DNA of 32,587 bases, from contig CAJONO010000212.1 of the NCBI GenBank assembly GCA_905235905.1, forward strand, positions 1 through 32,587. Direction: 5' to 3'. The notes under the pieces were generated by a model that was not told the origin of the DNA, ran no database searches, and saw only the letters and a program-made list of their open reading frames with translations. This document shows, piece by piece, positions 2,517-10,842 of this stretch. Both the position numbers and the translations under genes were made by a program. This stretch comes from an uncultured Prevotella sp. GTDB lineage: Bacteria > Bacteroidota > Bacteroidia > Bacteroidales > Bacteroidaceae. Numbering within the stretch: the first letter of the stretch is position 1; every line of letters starts with the position of its first letter.

Positions 2517-2796
2517 TAAAGAGTTTGTTGCTGAACTGTCGCAGCGTATGGGCTATAATACTGACCATACGCAGAAATTGCTGCTCAATGTGCTGAATGC
2601 TATGGGCGACAGCTTTCAGGAGGGAAATGCTGTTCAGATACCAGGTTTTGGACTATTTGAGGTGAAGAAGAAAATGGAGCGTGTTATTGTGAACCCCACA
2701 ACGGGTCAACGCATGCTCGTACCGCCGAAACTGGTGTTGGGATTCAGACCAAACGCTACATGGAAAGGCAAGGTGAAAAATGGAGGGCGTGAGTGA
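2509..2796 (+). CDS. HU/IHF family DNA-binding protein
   Basis: This is a 95-aa nucleoid protein of the HU/IHF superfamily, expected to bind and bend DNA as a dimer. The N-terminal helices are followed by QIPGFGLFEVKKK (the beta-arm base), NPTTGQRMLVPPK (the arm tip) and LGFRPNATWKGKV (the C-terminal helix region). The length is close to the usual 90-100 aa. The ATG lies in the overlap ATGAATAA with the end of rimO. The next gene begins at or just before its stop codon and also has an HU domain, so the two could heterodimerise, although that is inference. It is divergent from classical HU and I give no symbol. Confidence 0.9.
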   Translation: MNNKEFVAELSQRMGYNTDHTQKLLLNVLNAMGDSFQEGNAVQIPGFGLFEVKKKMERVIVNPTTGQRMLVPPKLVLGFRPNATWKGKVKNGGRE

Positions 2797-4058
2797 TGGC
2801 AAGATTGACAATACAAGACCTGGCGGCTGTGCTCATGAAGAAAAACAGTCTGCCGGAGGATGAAGCGCTGAAGTTCGTAACGGCTATCTTTGATGTGATT
2901 CAGATGGGTGTTGAACTCGATAAAACTGTGAAAATCAAGGGGCTGGGTACGTTTAGGGTGATAGATGTCGATGCCCGGGAGAGTGTGAACGTAAACACGG
3001 GTGAACGGGTGGTAATCGATGGCCATGCCAAGATTTCGTTCGTGCCTGACGCTACGATGAAGGAACTTGTAAACAAACCTTTTTCTGGCTTCGAGACGGT
3101 GGTGCTCAATGATGGGGTTGAGTTCAGCGATATTTCCATGCAGGAAGAAGACGCTCCTTCTCAGGATGATGATGAAACTGCCGAAAGCATGGTGGAAGAA
3201 TCGGTTGCAGAAGAGCAGCCAGAAGTAGCTGAAACTCCTGTAGAGACAGTCAACACTCTTGAGGAGGAAGTCCCTGTTGAGGAGGAAGTCCCTGTTGAGG
3301 AGGAAGTCCCTGTTGAGGAGAAAGCCCCTGTTGAGGAGGAGGTCCCTGTTGAGGAGGAGGTCCCTGTTGAGGAGGAAGTCCCTGTTGAGGAGGAGGTCCC
3401 TGTTGAGGAGGAAGTCCCTGTTGAGGAGGATACCCCTTGTTCGGCTCCCGTCATTGACATGCCTGTTGATACGGAGGAGAAGGAGGACGAGTCTCAGCAT
3501 AGCAAGATGTGGATAGTTTGGACGTTATTGGCTTTGGTGGCATGTGGGGCGAGCTTCGTAGCTGGTTTCTGTTTGGGTAGTAACTATTCGCCGGAAGTGG
3601 CGATGCCGGTTGACGAGAAGCCTGTTTCTGCAGCGACATCAGAGCAAAGCCCGACTGCCATAGCACAGAACGACAGCATAACGGAAAAGAACGCTCTTGT
3701 TTCCGGGAAGAGCGATTCTGCTAAGACCGTTGTCGCTACCATTGAGGAACTGGAACGAAAGGGAAAAGACGAGATGACGGACTCTCTTATTGTGGAGGCT
3801 AACAAGAAATATGCTGCGATGGACGCCCGTATTCGTACAGGTGCCTATTATATTGTAGGCACGAAACAGGTGGTCAAGGTGCGTGAGGGCGACACGCTTA
3901 TGAGAATTGCCCGTAGAACTGTAGGCCCGGAATTGTTGTGCTATATTGAGGCATATAACGGTATCAAAGCCACTGATTCCTTGAAGGTAGGCCAGACGGT
4001 GAAGATTCCTGATTTGAAATGGAAAAAGTATTTTAAGAAAAAACAATTAAATAAGTAA
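2796..4058 (+). CDS. HU domain-transmembrane-LysM protein
   Basis: This 420-aa protein has four parts: an HU-like domain (about 1-95, with IKGLGTFRV, NVNTGERVVI and ISFVPDATMKE), an acidic linker with about ten EEEVPV hexapeptides (156-215), one transmembrane helix (about 238-260, starting MWIVWTLLALVA), and a C-terminal LysM domain (about 366-411, VREGDTLMRIARRTVG...LKVGQTVKIPDL). LysM domains bind peptidoglycan, so the expected topology is HU in the cytoplasm and LysM in the periplasm. A role tethering nucleoid to cell wall is inferred, not shown. I chose the ATG at 2796, which overlaps the previous stop by 1 nt. GTG at 2793 is an alternative. The moxR gene follows after 2 nt. Confidence 0.9.
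   Translation: MARLTIQDLAAVLMKKNSLPEDEALKFVTAIFDVIQMGVELDKTVKIKGLGTFRVIDVDARESVNVNTGERVVIDGHAKISFVPDATMKELVNKPFSGFETVVLNDGVEFSDISMQEEDAPSQDDDETAESMVEESVAEEQPEVAETPVETVNTLEEEVPVEEEVPVEEEVPVEEKAPVEEEVPVEEEVPVEEEVPVEEEVPVEEEVPVEEDTPCSAPVIDMPVDTEEKEDESQHSKMWIVWTLLALVACGASFVAGFCLGSNYSPEVAMPVDEKPVSAATSEQSPTAIAQNDSITEKNALVSGKSDSAKTVVATIEELERKGKDEMTDSLIVEANKKYAAMDARIRTGAYYIVGTKQVVKVREGDTLMRIARRTVGPELLCYIEAYNGIKATDSLKVGQTVKIPDLKWKKYFKKKQLNK
3261..3440 (+). repeat. 18-bp tandem repeat encoding EEEVPV
   Basis: The unit GAGGAGGAAGTCCCTGTT is repeated about ten times, with GAA/GAG variation and one EEKAPV unit; the last copy is degenerate. The unit length of 18 bp keeps the frame, so copy-number change would only lengthen or shorten the acidic linker. 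Several long ORFs in the track on the opposite strand are shadows of this repeat. Confidence 0.95.
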
Positions 4059-4060
4059 TT

Positions 4061-5056
4061 ATGGCAGAAGCTATTGACATCCGGGAACTGAACATCCGGA
4101 TAGAACAACAAAGTGCGTTTGTAACAAATTTGGTGACGGGAATGGATCACGTCATCGTAGGTCAAAAACATCTGGTCGATTCCTTGCTCATTGGATTGCT
4201 GAGCGACGGTAATATACTGCTGGAAGGCGTTCCTGGCTTGGCTAAGACGTTGGCTATCAAAACATTGGCACAGCTCATCGATGCAAAGTATAACCGAATC
4301 CAGTTTACGCCCGACCTGCTACCTGCCGACGTGACAGGCACGATGATTTATTCACAGAAAGACGAGAAATTCCTTGTGAAGCAGGGACCGGTATTTGCCA
4401 ACTTCGTGCTGGCCGATGAAATAAACCGTGCCCCGGCAAAAGTGCAGAGCGCACTGCTGGAGGCAATGCAGGAAAAACAGGTGACTATAGGCAGTCAGAC
4501 GTTCGACCTTCCATCTCCCTTCTTAGTGATGGCTACGCAGAACCCTATTGAGCAAGAGGGAACTTATCCTCTGCCTGAGGCACAGGTTGACCGCTTCATG
4601 CTGAAGGTGGTTATCGATTATCCCACGTTGGAAGAAGAGAAGAAGATTATTCGCGAGAACATTGGCAGTGGTTTGCGTAGAGTGACTCCCGTGACCACGG
4701 CCGAGGAGATATTGAAGGCTCGCGAGGTGGTACGTGAGGTATATATCGATGAGAAGATTGAGCAGTATATTGCCGACATCGTTTTTGCTACCCGCTATCC
4801 TGACCGTTATGGGCTGAAAGACATGAAGGAGATGATTTCGTTTGGAGGCTCTCCCCGTGCTTCAATTAATCTGGCTAAAGCAGCCCGTGCCTACGCATTC
4901 ATTAAGCGTCGTGGCTACGTCGTTCCAGAAGACGTGCGTGCCGTTGCCCACGACGTGTTGCGCCATCGCATAGGGCTTACCTACGAGGCCGAGGCCAGTA
5001 ACGTGACCAGCGAGGAAATCGTTTCAAAGATTATTAATAAGGTGGAAGTTCCCTGA
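4061..5056 (+). CDS. moxR: MoxR family AAA+ ATPase
   Basis: MoxR AAA+ ATPases act as chaperones that activate partner proteins carrying VWA domains. The 331-aa protein has Walker A GVPGLAKT (56-63), Walker B VLADE (116-120), the MoxR-typical INRAPAKVQSALLEAMQE segment right after it, and sensor 1 ATQNP (158-162). It is followed by a DUF58 gene and two VWA-domain Bat proteins, the standard MoxR-DUF58-VWA arrangement. The gene starts 2 nt after the HU-LysM gene and ends 8 nt before the DUF58 gene, so it is almost certainly co-transcribed with both. Confidence 0.96.
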   Translation: MAEAIDIRELNIRIEQQSAFVTNLVTGMDHVIVGQKHLVDSLLIGLLSDGNILLEGVPGLAKTLAIKTLAQLIDAKYNRIQFTPDLLPADVTGTMIYSQKDEKFLVKQGPVFANFVLADEINRAPAKVQSALLEAMQEKQVTIGSQTFDLPSPFLVMATQNPIEQEGTYPLPEAQVDRFMLKVVIDYPTLEEEKKIIRENIGSGLRRVTPVTTAEEILKAREVVREVYIDEKIEQYIADIVFATRYPDRYGLKDMKEMISFGGSPRASINLAKAARAYAFIKRRGYVVPEDVRAVAHDVLRHRIGLTYEAEASNVTSEEIVSKIINKVEVP

Positions 5057-5064
5057 TCCTTGCA

Positions 5065-5934
5065 ATGGAAACAAGTGAAATCATTAAGAAAGTCCGTAAG
5101 ATAGAGATTAAGGCACACGGCCTAAGCTCGAATATCTTCGCCGGTCAGTATCATTCGGCCTTCAAGGGACGAGGCATGGCCTTCAGCGAGGTGCGCGAGT
5201 ATCAGTACGGTGACGACGTGCGCGACATCGACTGGAACGTAACTGCCCGTTTCCACAAACCTTACGTGAAGGTGTTTGAGGAAGAGCGTGAGCTGACCGT
5301 GATGCTGCTCATAGACGTGTCTGGCTCTCAGGACTTTGGTACGCAGAAGCAGATGAAACGCGATATGGTGACCGAGATAGCCGCTACGCTGGCTTTCTCG
5401 GCCATTCAGAACAACGATAAGATTGGCGTGATCTTCTTCTCTGATCAGATTGAGAAATATATTCCTCCGAAGAAAGGACGAAAGCACATCTTATATATTA
5501 TACGCGAGATGCTCGACTTCCATGCTGACTCTAAACGAACCGATGTCGCACAGGCTGTAGAGTTCCTCACCGGAGTGTCGAAGCGCCGTTGCACAGCCTT
5601 CCTCATGAGCGACTTCTACGTGCGTCAGGACTTTCTTTCCCAACTGACCATAGCCAATCGTAAGCATGATGTGGTGGCTATTCAGGTGTATGACAAACGG
5701 GCATGTGAACTGCCCGATGTGGGGCTAATGAAGGTGGTCGATGCCGAGACGGGCTTTGAGCAATATGTAGATACGGGTAGCCGTCGGCTTCGTGAGGCAT
5801 ACCGTCGCTATTGGCTGAGACGCCAGTCACAGCTGAAGGAAACATTTGCCAAGAGCAACGTAGACAGTGTATCGATAGCCACCGACGAAGATTATGTAAA
5901 GTCGCTGATGACCTTGTTCATGCAACGGGGGTGA
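5065..5934 (+). CDS. DUF58 domain protein of the Bat cluster
   Basis: This 289-aa cytosolic protein has the DUF58 signature REYQYGDDVRDIDWNVTAR (44-62) followed by a VWA-like fold with a MIDAS-type DVSGS motif (84-88). DUF58 proteins are regularly encoded next to MoxR ATPases and are presumed to be their partners; the biochemical role is not established. No transmembrane helix is seen. The ATG at 5065 is 8 nt downstream of moxR. Confidence 0.93.
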   Translation: METSEIIKKVRKIEIKAHGLSSNIFAGQYHSAFKGRGMAFSEVREYQYGDDVRDIDWNVTARFHKPYVKVFEEERELTVMLLIDVSGSQDFGTQKQMKRDMVTEIAATLAFSAIQNNDKIGVIFFSDQIEKYIPPKKGRKHILYIIREMLDFHADSKRTDVAQAVEFLTGVSKRRCTAFLMSDFYVRQDFLSQLTIANRKHDVVAIQVYDKRACELPDVGLMKVVDAETGFEQYVDTGSRRLREAYRRYWLRRQSQLKETFAKSNVDSVSIATDEDYVKSLMTLFMQRG

Positions 5935-5949
5935 GCGGATTTGTCAAAA

Positions 5950-7095
5950 ATGAAGAAAGAAATGAGAATAAACAATAGTATGCACAGACCTCACTGTTGG
6001 CTGCTAACGATGATAAGCCTTTCCTTTGTCATCTGTCAGTTGCCATTTGCCAAAACGGTGGCACAAACAATATCGGTTGAGGCTCGTATCGACTCCATCG
6101 AGATGTTTGTAGGCCAACAGACGCATGTGACGGTGACGGCTACAATGCCTGAAGGTGCAAAGGCTGCCTTTCCTGTATTCAGGCCTTCTGAATATCTCAC
6201 GCCAGGCGTAGAAGTCCTGTCGAGTACCGAACTGGGTGTTCATGGCATTGAGAATGGCTTCGTGGAGCGATCGGTAGTCTATACACTTACGTCATTTGAC
6301 GATACGCTCTATTATCTGCCGCCCTTCGTGGTCAATGTCGACGGAAAAACCTATGAGAGCAAGAGTCTGGCACTCAAGGTACTTACTTTCGAAGTCGACA
6401 CGCTCCATCCTGAGCGCATCTTCCCTCCGAAGGATGTTCAGCAGAATCCCTTCCTGTGGAGTGATTGGAGCTTGTCGTTCTGGCTGAGTGTGGTCATGCT
6501 TTTGCTCATGGCAGTAGGCTATTACTTGTATCTTCGCTTGCGCGACAACAAGCCCATCATTGCTACTATTCGCATTGTGAAGCGTTTGCTGCCACACCAG
6601 AAAGCTATGAGGGAGATAGAGGCTCTGCGGACTGAACATCGTGGCATGAACGACGATAATCAGGAGAGCCAGAAGGAGTATTATACCAAACTGACCGATG
6701 CCCTGCGCCGTTATATTGAGGAACGCTATGGTTTCTCGGCAATGGAGATGACAAGTGCGGAGATTATTGAACGCTTGACGAAAGATCCCGACACCAAGTT
6801 ACTCGATGAACTGCGCCAGCTGTTCCAGACGGCCGACCTTGTGAAGTTTGCCAAGTATTCTACGCTCATCAATGAGAGCGATGCCAATCTGATGAGTGCC
6901 ATCGAGTTTATCAATGAGACTAAGCAGGAAAACCTGCCTACAGAAGAAACCGTGAAACCGCAACTCACTGCCGAAGAGCAACGCTCACAAAAGGAGCGGA
7001 CAGCCCTGAAGTGGACGGTTGTTGGCATAGCGGTAGTATGTATCGTCCTGCTTGTCTATGTGGTCTACAGTGTTTATCAGCTATTAGTACCCTAA
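5950..7095 (+). CDS. BatD-like membrane protein of the Bat cluster
   Basis: The 381-aa protein has an N-terminal signal-like hydrophobic segment (about 17-33), an extracytoplasmic beta-rich region opening with ARIDSIEMFVGQQ (as in BatD-type N-termini), a transmembrane helix (about 176-195), a cytoplasmic helical region containing ALRRYIEERYGFSAMEMTS, and a last helix near the C-terminus (about 357-378). The C-terminal part resembles DUF4381-type proteins found in MoxR-VWA clusters. It is shorter than a full BatD (about 600 aa). The track begins at a TTG at 5941; I prefer ATG 5950, and ATG 5962 or 5980 are possible. BatA follows after 6 nt. Its function is not known. Confidence 0.85.
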   Translation: MKKEMRINNSMHRPHCWLLTMISLSFVICQLPFAKTVAQTISVEARIDSIEMFVGQQTHVTVTATMPEGAKAAFPVFRPSEYLTPGVEVLSSTELGVHGIENGFVERSVVYTLTSFDDTLYYLPPFVVNVDGKTYESKSLALKVLTFEVDTLHPERIFPPKDVQQNPFLWSDWSLSFWLSVVMLLLMAVGYYLYLRLRDNKPIIATIRIVKRLLPHQKAMREIEALRTEHRGMNDDNQESQKEYYTKLTDALRRYIEERYGFSAMEMTSAEIIERLTKDPDTKLLDELRQLFQTADLVKFAKYSTLINESDANLMSAIEFINETKQENLPTEETVKPQLTAEEQRSQKERTALKWTVVGIAVVCIVLLVYVVYSVYQLLVP

Positions 7096-7101
7096 GAAAA
7101 A

Positions 7102-8103
7102 ATGGAATTTGCCAACAAAGAATATTTCTTTCTGCTCCTGCTTATCATACCTTATATAATATGGTATGTCATGTATCGCAAAAAGAGCGAGCCAACCATT
7201 CGGATGGCCGATACCTTCGCTTTCCGTTATGCACCACGTAGCTGGAAAGTGACGCTGATGCCCCTGCAGATGCTATTGCGCATCGTGGCGTTCACCATGC
7301 TTGTCGTCATCCTTGCTCGTCCGCAGACCCATAATTCGTGGAAAAATCAGACCGTCGAGGGCATCGACATTATGCTGGCCATGGACGTGTCTACATCGAT
7401 GCTTGCTGAAGATTTGAAACCGAATCGCATCGAGGCGGCAAAGAACGTGGCTGCCGAGTTTGTGGCTGGGCGCCCGGACGACAATATTGGCTTGTCGATC
7501 TTTGCAGGAGAAGCGTTCACGCAATGTCCTATGACCACCGACCACGCTTCGTTGCTTTCGTTGCTGCAGGGCGTTCGCACGGATATTGCCGCCCGGGGGT
7601 TAATTGAAGACGGCACGGCTATAGGCATGGGACTTGCCAATGCCGTGAGTCGTCTGAAAGAGTCGAAGGCTAAGAGCCGTGTGGTGATTCTGCTCACCGA
7701 CGGTTCCAACAACCGTGGTGACATATCGCCCCTGACGGCAGCCGAGATTGCAAAGAGCCTTGGCATCCGCGTCTATACGATTGGTGTGGGAACAACGGGT
7801 ACGGCCCCAATGCCGCCCAGTGCAACAGGATTGCCGCAGTATGTGAACCTTCCAGTGGAGATCGATGAGAAAACACTGAAAGGTATTGCTGCCGCTACCG
7901 ATGGTGACTACTATCGGGCTAAGAATAACAAAGAACTGAACCAGATATACAAGGAGATAGACAAGCTGGAGAAGTCGAAGCTGAATGTCAAGCAATACAG
8001 TCGCCGCTACGAGGCCTACCAATGGCCCTTTGCCGTCATTGCCATTTTGGCGCTGTTCCTCGAAATATTGCTCAGAATCACCGTGTTCCGGCGTATTCCG
8101 TGA
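7102..8103 (+). CDS. batA: Aerotolerance protein BatA (VWA domain)
   Basis: This is a 333-aa inner-membrane protein with N-terminal hydrophobic segments (about 8-24 and 52-71), a VWA domain with the MIDAS motif DVSTS (95-99) and the following TDGSNNRGD, and a C-terminal transmembrane helix (about 306-325). Bat proteins were linked to oxygen tolerance in Bacteroides fragilis; the molecular mechanism is unclear. The VWA domain is expected to work with the MoxR ATPase encoded upstream. A 55-nt gap, the longest in this run, separates it from batB/C. Confidence 0.93.
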   Translation: MEFANKEYFFLLLLIIPYIIWYVMYRKKSEPTIRMADTFAFRYAPRSWKVTLMPLQMLLRIVAFTMLVVILARPQTHNSWKNQTVEGIDIMLAMDVSTSMLAEDLKPNRIEAAKNVAAEFVAGRPDDNIGLSIFAGEAFTQCPMTTDHASLLSLLQGVRTDIAARGLIEDGTAIGMGLANAVSRLKESKAKSRVVILLTDGSNNRGDISPLTAAEIAKSLGIRVYTIGVGTTGTAPMPPSATGLPQYVNLPVEIDEKTLKGIAAATDGDYYRAKNNKELNQIYKEIDKLEKSKLNVKQYSRRYEAYQWPFAVIAILALFLEILLRITVFRRIP

Positions 8104-8158: not shown

Positions 8159-9847
8159 ATGTTTAGATTTGAAGACCCGAAATATTTGTATCTGCTGGCA
8201 TTGGTTGTGATGCTGGCATTGATTCGTTTCGTAACCTATCGCAATCAGCGGAAACGTATGCGCAAATTTGGCGACCCTCAATTGCTGAATAGCCTGATGC
8301 CAGACGTATCACGTTTACGGCCTACTTTAAAATTCTGGTTGCTCGAAGCCGCCTTGGCACTGCTTATCGTTATGTTGGCACGTCCACAGTTTGGCACACG
8401 TATAAGCCATGAGAAGCGGACAGGTATTGAGACCATTATCTGTATGGATATCAGTAACTCTATGCTGGCCGAAGACGTGGAGCCAAGCCGCCTTGACCGT
8501 GCGAAGATGATGGTTGAGAACATGGTAGACAATTTCACCAACGATAAGATTGGTCTCATCGTATTTGCCGGGGAGGCTTTTGTACAGTTGCCCATTACGA
8601 GTGACTATGTCTCGGCTAAAATGTTCCTTTCAAATATCGACCCCTCGATGATGCAGAGTCAGGGAACCGATATAGCTGCGGCTATTCGTACGGGCCTGCA
8701 TAGCTTCACACAGCAGGAAAATATAGGAAAGGCTATCATCGTCATTACCGATGGTGAAGACCATGAAGGCGGTGCACTCGAAATGGCAAAGGAGGCAAAG
8801 GAGAAGGGCATGCGTGTCTACGTCTTGGGCGTTGGCTCCACCAAAGGGTCACCCATCCCCATCCCCGGCACTGGCGATTATATGCGTGACAATACGGGCA
8901 ACACAGTGATGTCGGCACTCAACGAACAGATGTGCAGCGAAATTGCACAGGCGGGAGGAGGTGCCTACATACATGTGGAAAACAACTCGAATGCCCAGCG
9001 ACTTCTTGACGAGGAACTCGACAAGTTAGAGAAAAACGAGACAGAGAGTACCATTTATAGTGAATATGATGAGCAGTTTCAGGCGGTAGGCTGGATAGTC
9101 CTCTTGCTTCTTGTCCTTGAGGTGTGTATTCTCGATTGCAAGAATCCGTTTATGAAGAATGTTTCATTGTTTGGTAAAAAGAAAAAGATTGTTGCCGCCT
9201 GCCTCTTGATGGTGGCAGTTGGTGTGCAGGCACAGACAGACCGCCAGTACATTCGGCAGGGCAATAAGATGTTCCAACGGGGTGACCTTGAAAAGGCTGA
9301 AGTTGCCTATACCAAGGCTGTAGAGAAAAACGACAAGAATCCTCAGGCACATTACAACTTAGGACGTGTGTTGCAGGAGCAGAAGAAAGATTCTGCTGCC
9401 GTCGAGGCCTACCAACGGGCAGGACGCTTGGAAACGAACCCCTTGCGTAGGTCGCAGGCTTATCACAATATGGGGGTAATTTGTCAGCAGGGCAAACTCT
9501 ATGGCGAGGCAATCGAGGCATATAAGCAGGCTCTCAGACTGAATCCTGCCGACGATGCTACACGGTATAATTTGGTGCTTTGTAAACATCAGAAACAAAA
9601 ACAAGACCAGCAGAAGCAGGAACAGCAGCAGGAGCAGAACCAGCAGGAACAAAAGCAAGAGCAGCAAAAGCAGAATCAGCAAAAGAAGGATGAGAAAGAC
9701 GAGCAGCAACAACAGAAACCTGAGCCCAAGATGAGCAAGGAGAATGCCGAGCAACTTCTGAATGCTGCTATGCAACAAGAGAAGAATACCCAGCAGCGCA
9801 TGCAACAGAAGAAAGGACAGCGCCAGCAGAATGAAAAGAACTGGTAG
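8159..9847 (+). CDS. BatB-BatC fusion: VWA domain plus TPR protein
   Basis: The first part (about 1-335) is BatB-like: hydrophobic helices at about 8-24 and 57-75, the MIDAS motif DISNS (97-101), TDGEDHEGG, and a third helix near 310-325. The second part (about 332-562) is BatC-like: a hydrophobic stretch that looks like an old signal peptide (about 344-358, ending VGVQAQ), roughly three TPR units (about 362-475) and a long Gln/Lys/Glu-rich tail. Separate BatB and BatC proteins are usual in Bacteroides. An in-frame ATG at 9152 (M332) starts what would be a normal BatC signal peptide, so BatC might also be made separately. No batD or batE follows; the next gene is rpoD. Confidence 0.9.
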   Translation: MFRFEDPKYLYLLALVVMLALIRFVTYRNQRKRMRKFGDPQLLNSLMPDVSRLRPTLKFWLLEAALALLIVMLARPQFGTRISHEKRTGIETIICMDISNSMLAEDVEPSRLDRAKMMVENMVDNFTNDKIGLIVFAGEAFVQLPITSDYVSAKMFLSNIDPSMMQSQGTDIAAAIRTGLHSFTQQENIGKAIIVITDGEDHEGGALEMAKEAKEKGMRVYVLGVGSTKGSPIPIPGTGDYMRDNTGNTVMSALNEQMCSEIAQAGGGAYIHVENNSNAQRLLDEELDKLEKNETESTIYSEYDEQFQAVGWIVLLLLVLEVCILDCKNPFMKNVSLFGKKKKIVAACLLMVAVGVQAQTDRQYIRQGNKMFQRGDLEKAEVAYTKAVEKNDKNPQAHYNLGRVLQEQKKDSAAVEAYQRAGRLETNPLRRSQAYHNMGVICQQGKLYGEAIEAYKQALRLNPADDATRYNLVLCKHQKQKQDQQKQEQQQEQNQQEQKQEQQKQNQQKKDEKDEQQQQKPEPKMSKENAEQLLNAAMQQEKNTQQRMQQKKGQRQQNEKNW

Positions 9848-9881: not shown

Positions 9882-9913
9882 CTTGACACGTATGATTTTT
9901 TTTCGTAATTTTG
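9882..9913 (+). promoter_or_regulatory. Likely promoter of rpoD
   Basis: CTTG at 9882-9885 and TAATTTTG at 9906-9913 are 20 bases apart and fit the Bacteroidota -33/-7 pattern, with one mismatch in the -33 box. The predicted transcription start is about 50 bases before the rpoD ATG. The 122-base gap after batB/C also suggests an independent transcription unit. Confidence 0.65.
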
Positions 9914-9969: not shown

Positions 9970-10842
9970 ATGAGACAACTTAAAATTCAGAAGAGTATCA
10001 CTAACCGTTCGAGCGAGGCGCTCGACAAGTATCTCGTGGAAATTGGCCGTCAGCCACTCGTTACCATTGACGAGGAGATAGAACTTTCACAGGCTATCCG
10101 CCGTGGAGGACTTGAGGGTGAAAAGGCACGTGAGCGGCTTGTCAAGGCCAATTTGCGTTTCGTGGTTTCGGTAGCCAAACAGTATCAGCATCAGGGTCTT
10201 TCGCTGACCGACTTGATTGACGAGGGAAACGTGGGACTCATCAAGGCTGCTGAGAAATTTGACGAGACTCGTGGTTTTAAGTTTATATCATACGCTGTCT
10301 GGTGGATTCGCCAGAGCATATTGCAAGCTATCGCCGAGCAGAGCCGAATTGTCCGCCTGCCACTGAATCAGAGTGGTGCTCTGAGCAAAATTAATCAGGA
10401 AATAAACCGTTTTGAGCAAGAGCATCAGCGACGTCCGTCGGTCACTGAGCTGTCGGAACTTACTGGGGTTGACGATGAGAAGATTGAACAGTCGATGAAG
10501 GCCGACTCCCATCATTTGAGCATCGACGCTCCTTTCGGCGAGGACGATGACAATTCCATGGCAGATTTGCTGTCTTCGGGCGATGATAGCAGGACAGACA
10601 AGGCGGTAGACTTCGAGTCGCTTACCTCTGACTTAGATAACGTGCTTCGTAAAGTGCTCAAGGAACGCGAGTTGCGCATCGTCAAGGAGTGCTTCGGCAT
10701 TGGTTGTCATGAGAAAGGATTAGAGGAAATTGGCACTGAGATGGGGCTGACCCGTGAGCGTGTGCGCCAGATTCGTGAGAAATCGATAGCCAAGCTGCGT
10801 GAAAGCGGCTATGCCAAGATACTGATGAAGTATTTGGGTTAG
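9970..10842 (+). CDS. rpoD: Primary sigma factor RpoD/SigA, Bacteroidota type
   Basis: This is the housekeeping sigma-70 factor that directs RNA polymerase to the -33/-7 promoters seen here. It has 290 aa, typical of the Bacteroidota form that lacks region 1.1. It begins MRQLKIQKS, then region 1.2 (EALDKYLVEIG), region 2 (LTDLIDEGNVGLIKAAEKFD, GFKFISYAVWWIRQ), region 3 and region 4 with a helix-turn-helix (GLTRERVRQIREKSIAKLR). A single gene appears to lie downstream of its own promoter. A 21-bp tandem duplication lies just after its stop. Confidence 0.97.
   Translation: MRQLKIQKSITNRSSEALDKYLVEIGRQPLVTIDEEIELSQAIRRGGLEGEKARERLVKANLRFVVSVAKQYQHQGLSLTDLIDEGNVGLIKAAEKFDETRGFKFISYAVWWIRQSILQAIAEQSRIVRLPLNQSGALSKINQEINRFEQEHQRRPSVTELSELTGVDDEKIEQSMKADSHHLSIDAPFGEDDDNSMADLLSSGDDSRTDKAVDFESLTSDLDNVLRKVLKERELRIVKECFGIGCHEKGLEEIGTEMGLTRERVRQIREKSIAKLRESGYAKILMKYLG

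Follow-up and report, generated by a model that had tools for sequence, protein, structure and literature searches.

In Bacteroides fragilis, the bat (Bacteroides aerotolerance) operon consists of five separate and contiguous genes, encoding the VWA proteins BatA and BatB, the TPR protein BatC, BatD and BatE, placed behind moxR and a DUF58 gene (PMC3557215). The fusion of BatB to BatC is already known as such: in Leptospira biflexa, which belongs to another phylum, batB and batC are likewise joined in one gene, and other bat fusions have been reported for Borrelia, Spirochaeta and Francisella (PMC3557215). The function of the Bat complex is unsettled, because deletion of bat in L. biflexa produced no growth or oxidative-stress phenotype (PMC3557215). 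The locus that we present here contains members of the same families as the B. fragilis operon, but batB and batC form a single frame and batD and batE lie at another locus. To the known fusion we add a testable reading of how it is tolerated.

The window, that is, the whole 32,587-nucleotide stretch that was analysed, is contig C212 of a draft genome of 231 contigs, 82% complete and with an estimated contamination of 0.11%. In public records its relatives are assigned to Prevotella; most are uncultured, and they come largely from ruminants. The features on which the argument relies are the following.

4061..5056, plus strand: moxR AAA+ ATPase gene, first of the bat cluster (domain match)
5065..5934, plus strand: DUF58 gene of the bat cluster (domain match)
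5950..7095, plus strand: small BatD-like gene with a weak BatD match, a standard member of the cluster in relatives
7102..8103, plus strand: batA (domain match)
8159..9847, plus strand: batBC, fused BatB-BatC ORF of 562 aa (ORF, domains, same frame in many relatives)
8159..9133, plus strand: BatB part, aa 1-325 (domains, sequence, loop charges)
9134..9196, plus strand: basic linker, aa 326-346, predicted cytoplasmic (alignment, charges)
9152..9154, plus strand: in-frame ATG (M332), not conserved (alignment)
9188..9232, plus strand: internal BatC signal peptide, hydrophobic core plus V-Q-A, aa about 344-358 (judged from sequence)
9230..9235, plus strand: predicted signal peptidase I site A358/Q359 (alignment of fused proteins)
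9233..9847, plus strand: BatC part, aa 359-562, TPRs and a Gln/Lys-rich tail, predicted to be periplasmic after cleavage
9883..9913, plus strand: Bacteroidota-type promoter match ahead of the sigma factor gene (consensus match only)
9970..10842, plus strand: rpoD-type sigma factor gene, now 3' of batBC and outside the bat cluster in relatives

The initial annotation had read 8159-9847 as one ORF of 562 aa joining the VWA and TPR proteins, with the BatC signal peptide turned internal, and both statements hold. The 562 codons are free of internal stops, and Pfam places the BatA/B N-terminal domain (PF07584) at residues 1-76, the VWA domain at 92-228 and TPRs at about 366-475. The scores on the BatB side are 31.1 bits for PF07584 (cut-off 25.9), 73.3 for PF13519 and 69.1 for PF00092. 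Two N-terminal membrane segments precede the VWA domain, whose metal site (D97-x-S99-x-S101) is intact, and a third membrane segment follows at about residues 308-325. The N-terminal and VWA domains, together with adjacency to moxR, DUF58 and batA, identify this part as BatB, and what comes directly after it, a signal peptide judged from sequence (residues about 344-358) and then TPRs, has the composition of BatC. The linker of residues 326-346 differs among relatives in both sequence and length. A sequencing error joining two ORFs is excluded, because many species, each sequenced independently, carry the same unbroken frame.

The fusion is indeed common. By hand count, an unbroken BatB-BatC frame is present in about 90 of 200 sampled genomes of the genus; further genera of the family have it too, and it appears sporadically among more distant relatives within the phylum. 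The cultured isolate Prevotella sp. P6B1 (L073) is one of those with a fused batBC. Many of the split species carry batB and batC adjacent and in frame, with one stop between them. On a quick, unrooted, single-gene tree of BatB from 132 loci, built under a simple model, no fewer than 17 changes of the fused or split label are needed, of which well-supported branches force 12, in a count that pools fusions and fissions. With at least 12 to 17 changes of label, the state has therefore changed often.

We give a probability of roughly 0.7 to the reading that batBC encodes a precursor split by signal peptidase I into a membrane-bound BatB and a periplasmic BatC. The loss of the stop between adjacent batB and batC would yield one frame, in which the third membrane segment of BatB would end in the cytoplasm and the short basic linker would stay there. 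The former BatC signal peptide would then serve as an internal signal taking the TPR part to the periplasm, and signal peptidase I would cut after A358, releasing BatC and leaving BatB in the membrane. Released BatC would start with a Gln that would become pyroglutamate. The outcome would be about the same two proteins that split-gene species make, in a fixed 1:1 ratio. The mechanism has an experimental precedent in FbcH, the cytochrome b/c1 precursor of Bradyrhizobium japonicum, a single polypeptide comprising a membrane protein and an exported protein that are cut apart at a signal peptide in its interior. FbcH and BatBC are unrelated proteins that would work alike if our reading is right; processing was established experimentally for FbcH and is predicted for BatBC.

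The topology that this requires is suggested by the distribution of charges. In the fused set, the median net charge is +6 in the loop between membrane segments 1 and 2, +1 at one end of the VWA domain and -3 at the other, and +5 in the linker, so that, by the positive-inside rule, the VWA domain would be periplasmic and the linker cytoplasmic. Such an arrangement would place the BatC signal peptide correctly for export of the TPR part, and it is because of this placement that the fusion could form without harm. The internal signal peptide, with a predicted orientation from cytoplasm to periplasm, and its cut site are both conserved in the aligned sequences.

This conservation is best seen in an alignment of the junction of 80 distinct fused proteins. 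Columns of the linker and of the hydrophobic core rank with the most variable there, at entropies of up to 3.4 bits, and amid these highly variable neighbours Ala is kept at -1 in 74 proteins and Gln at +1 in 75, counts that rest on fixed alignment columns, a count taking the best of about 25 positions being biased. Position -3 is mostly Ala, Val, Ser or Thr. The Ala(-1) is encoded by all four of its codons (GCC 23, GCA 21, GCT 15, GCG 15), and thus the residue has been retained through substitutions at the third codon position. The uncharged run before the site has a median of 16 residues in fused and split proteins alike, and hydrophobicity is similar in both. Within the large fused clade, some of this conservation is due to common descent. 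Isolated fused lineages (such as L042, L063, L088, L101, L135, L137, L169, L170, L171, L173 and L177) and the distant fused proteins L209 and L210 also keep the A/Q pair. The motif is not absolute, since L130 has Glu at +1 and L172 has Gly at -1. Judged from these alignments, the internal signal peptide of BatC is not a relic. The Gln at +1 fits what has been described for Bacteroidetes as the Q-rule, by which signal peptidase I exposes a Gln that is cyclised to pyroglutamate (PMC5837995, PMC10653852). A gene of the signal peptidase I family is present in the genome. So are M28-family proteins, the family to which the bacterial glutaminyl cyclases of Bacteroidota belong.

The same observations bear on two other fates of the BatC part. 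BatBC might stay whole, its old signal peptide now serving as a fourth membrane segment and holding the periplasmic TPR domain to BatB. This is compatible with the topology proposed above, and tethering would fix a 1:1 complex of BatB and BatC, which are thought to act together. We nevertheless find it unlikely, for in a protein that is never cleaved nothing would favour keeping the cut site, yet Ala(-1) and Gln(+1) persist beside a varying core, and the core of the signal peptide has not been lengthened to the usual length of a membrane segment. BatC could also be made, additionally or exclusively, from an internal translation start, and the initial annotation had proposed ATG 9152 for this role. 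That codon is in frame and lies just 5' of the signal peptide core, and residue 332 is likewise encoded by ATG in L015, L019 and L038, three of the closest relatives with a fused gene. It is not conserved all the same: residue 332 is Met in 5 of the 80 fused proteins and Leu in 57, and an in-frame ATG anywhere in that stretch occurs in 33, at scattered places, leaving 47 with none. GTG or TTG codons in the stretch of 56 of the 80 leave some room for alternative starts. Overall we regard an internal start as very improbable, and a separate BatC more likely comes from signal peptidase cleavage after residue 358 than from ATG 9152.

In the window, batBC is succeeded by the gene of an rpoD-type sigma factor and then by that of phosphoglucose isomerase, and not by batD and batE. 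The initial annotation had taken these two genes to be absent, which is correct for the region directly downstream of batBC and incorrect for the genome. A BatD family search of the genome located both together on contig C77: batD, of 621 aa with three BatD domains, and, about 27 bases after it and in the same frame, batE, of 260 aa with TPR and SH3_3 domains. They are followed by a PAP2 gene and one further gene, as in relatives, where gene maps give the usual order as moxR, DUF58, the small BatD-like gene, batA, batBC (or batB, batC), batD-batE, PAP2 and one further gene. Since the block from batD to the gene after PAP2 is intact but detached, the break in the cluster falls between batBC and batD, and the batD-batE half has moved to another locus and has not been lost. 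Nor did the suggestion that the upstream BatD-like gene compensates for a missing batD stand. This gene, whose start at 5950 is the first ATG of a TTG-started ORF (5941-7095), also sits between DUF58 and batA in mapped relatives, and is no substitute, because it is present in those with a full batD-batE.

Elsewhere in the genome, BatD domains were also matched by a GH10 protein on C58 and by a C10 peptidase on C83, both of them unrelated. On contig C94 (L012:4043-6074), the gene of a Sel1-repeat and BatD-domain protein (413 aa) overlaps that of a VWA protein (265 aa), and constitutes a second, small Bat-like pair. Just 5' of the detached batD there are two Bacteroidota-type promoter matches (L011:8413-8586, minus strand), which are consensus matches only.

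An ancestral linkage between batBC and rpoD can be rejected, as in the relatives examined the orthologous sigma factor is not flanked by any of the tested window genes within 1.5 kb. A consensus scan found no terminator after batBC in the window, and the promoter match at 9883..9913 suggests that the sigma factor gene is a separate transcription unit. The gene at 9970-10842 of the window and another at G000 contig C6:31795-32652 both encode RpoD-type sigma factors, each of about 290 aa and 62% alike. At the other end of the cluster, just before moxR, the window encodes a protein that combines an HU-type DNA-binding domain with a LysM domain (2793-4058); relatives of this protein at the corresponding position show poor conservation (36-63%) next to neighbours that are well conserved.

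The junction of batBC with rpoD, or the separation from batD-batE, might instead be an assembly artefact. The draft is fragmented and incomplete, and in two other genomes, G119 and G116 (L050, L051, L059, L060), contigs end close to, or right at, the batBC/batD junction, where a repeat or mobile element may lie. An artefact is barely credible, though, given the low estimated contamination, the occurrence of the fusion in many independent assemblies, long contigs included, and the fact that close relatives of the C77 batD occur in the same genomes as those of batBC. Moreover, batBC and batD stand apart, with flanking sequence present, in four other genomes (G129, G057, G034 and G072). A detailed comparison, made for G129, shows that the two halves have other outer neighbours there than in the genome of the window, so that a single common break is not supported. 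G129 also has a very stable hairpin with a T-run directly 3' of batBC (L044:4530-4580; fold z-score -7.4).

The other half of the operon shows a parallel fusion. Of the 48 distinct loci with data, 41 have BatD and BatE in a single open frame (for instance L045-L058 and L063-L107), and in the genome of the window they are separate but in frame (C77, L011:8386-5711, minus strand). At this join, which was analysed less deeply than that of BatB-BatC, a signal peptide adjoins what is presumed to be a cytoplasmic tail, and the +1 position is not regularly Gln. We would put at even odds the broader idea that the bat complex of Prevotella and its relatives is assembled from a BatB-BatC and a BatD-BatE precursor, both of which separate themselves: in each, the two proteins would be linked on the cytoplasmic side and parted by cleavage at an internal signal peptide that has been retained. 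Repeated toggling between fusion and fission would then leave the products unchanged.

If BatBC is cleaved as we propose, one-gene and two-gene annotations of bat would describe the same proteins, and the two partners of the Bat complex would be supplied in a fixed 1:1 dose. The internal signal peptide would make the fusion of the genes nearly neutral, and the locus would provide a clear natural case in which the loss and gain of a stop codon is tolerated through protein export signals.
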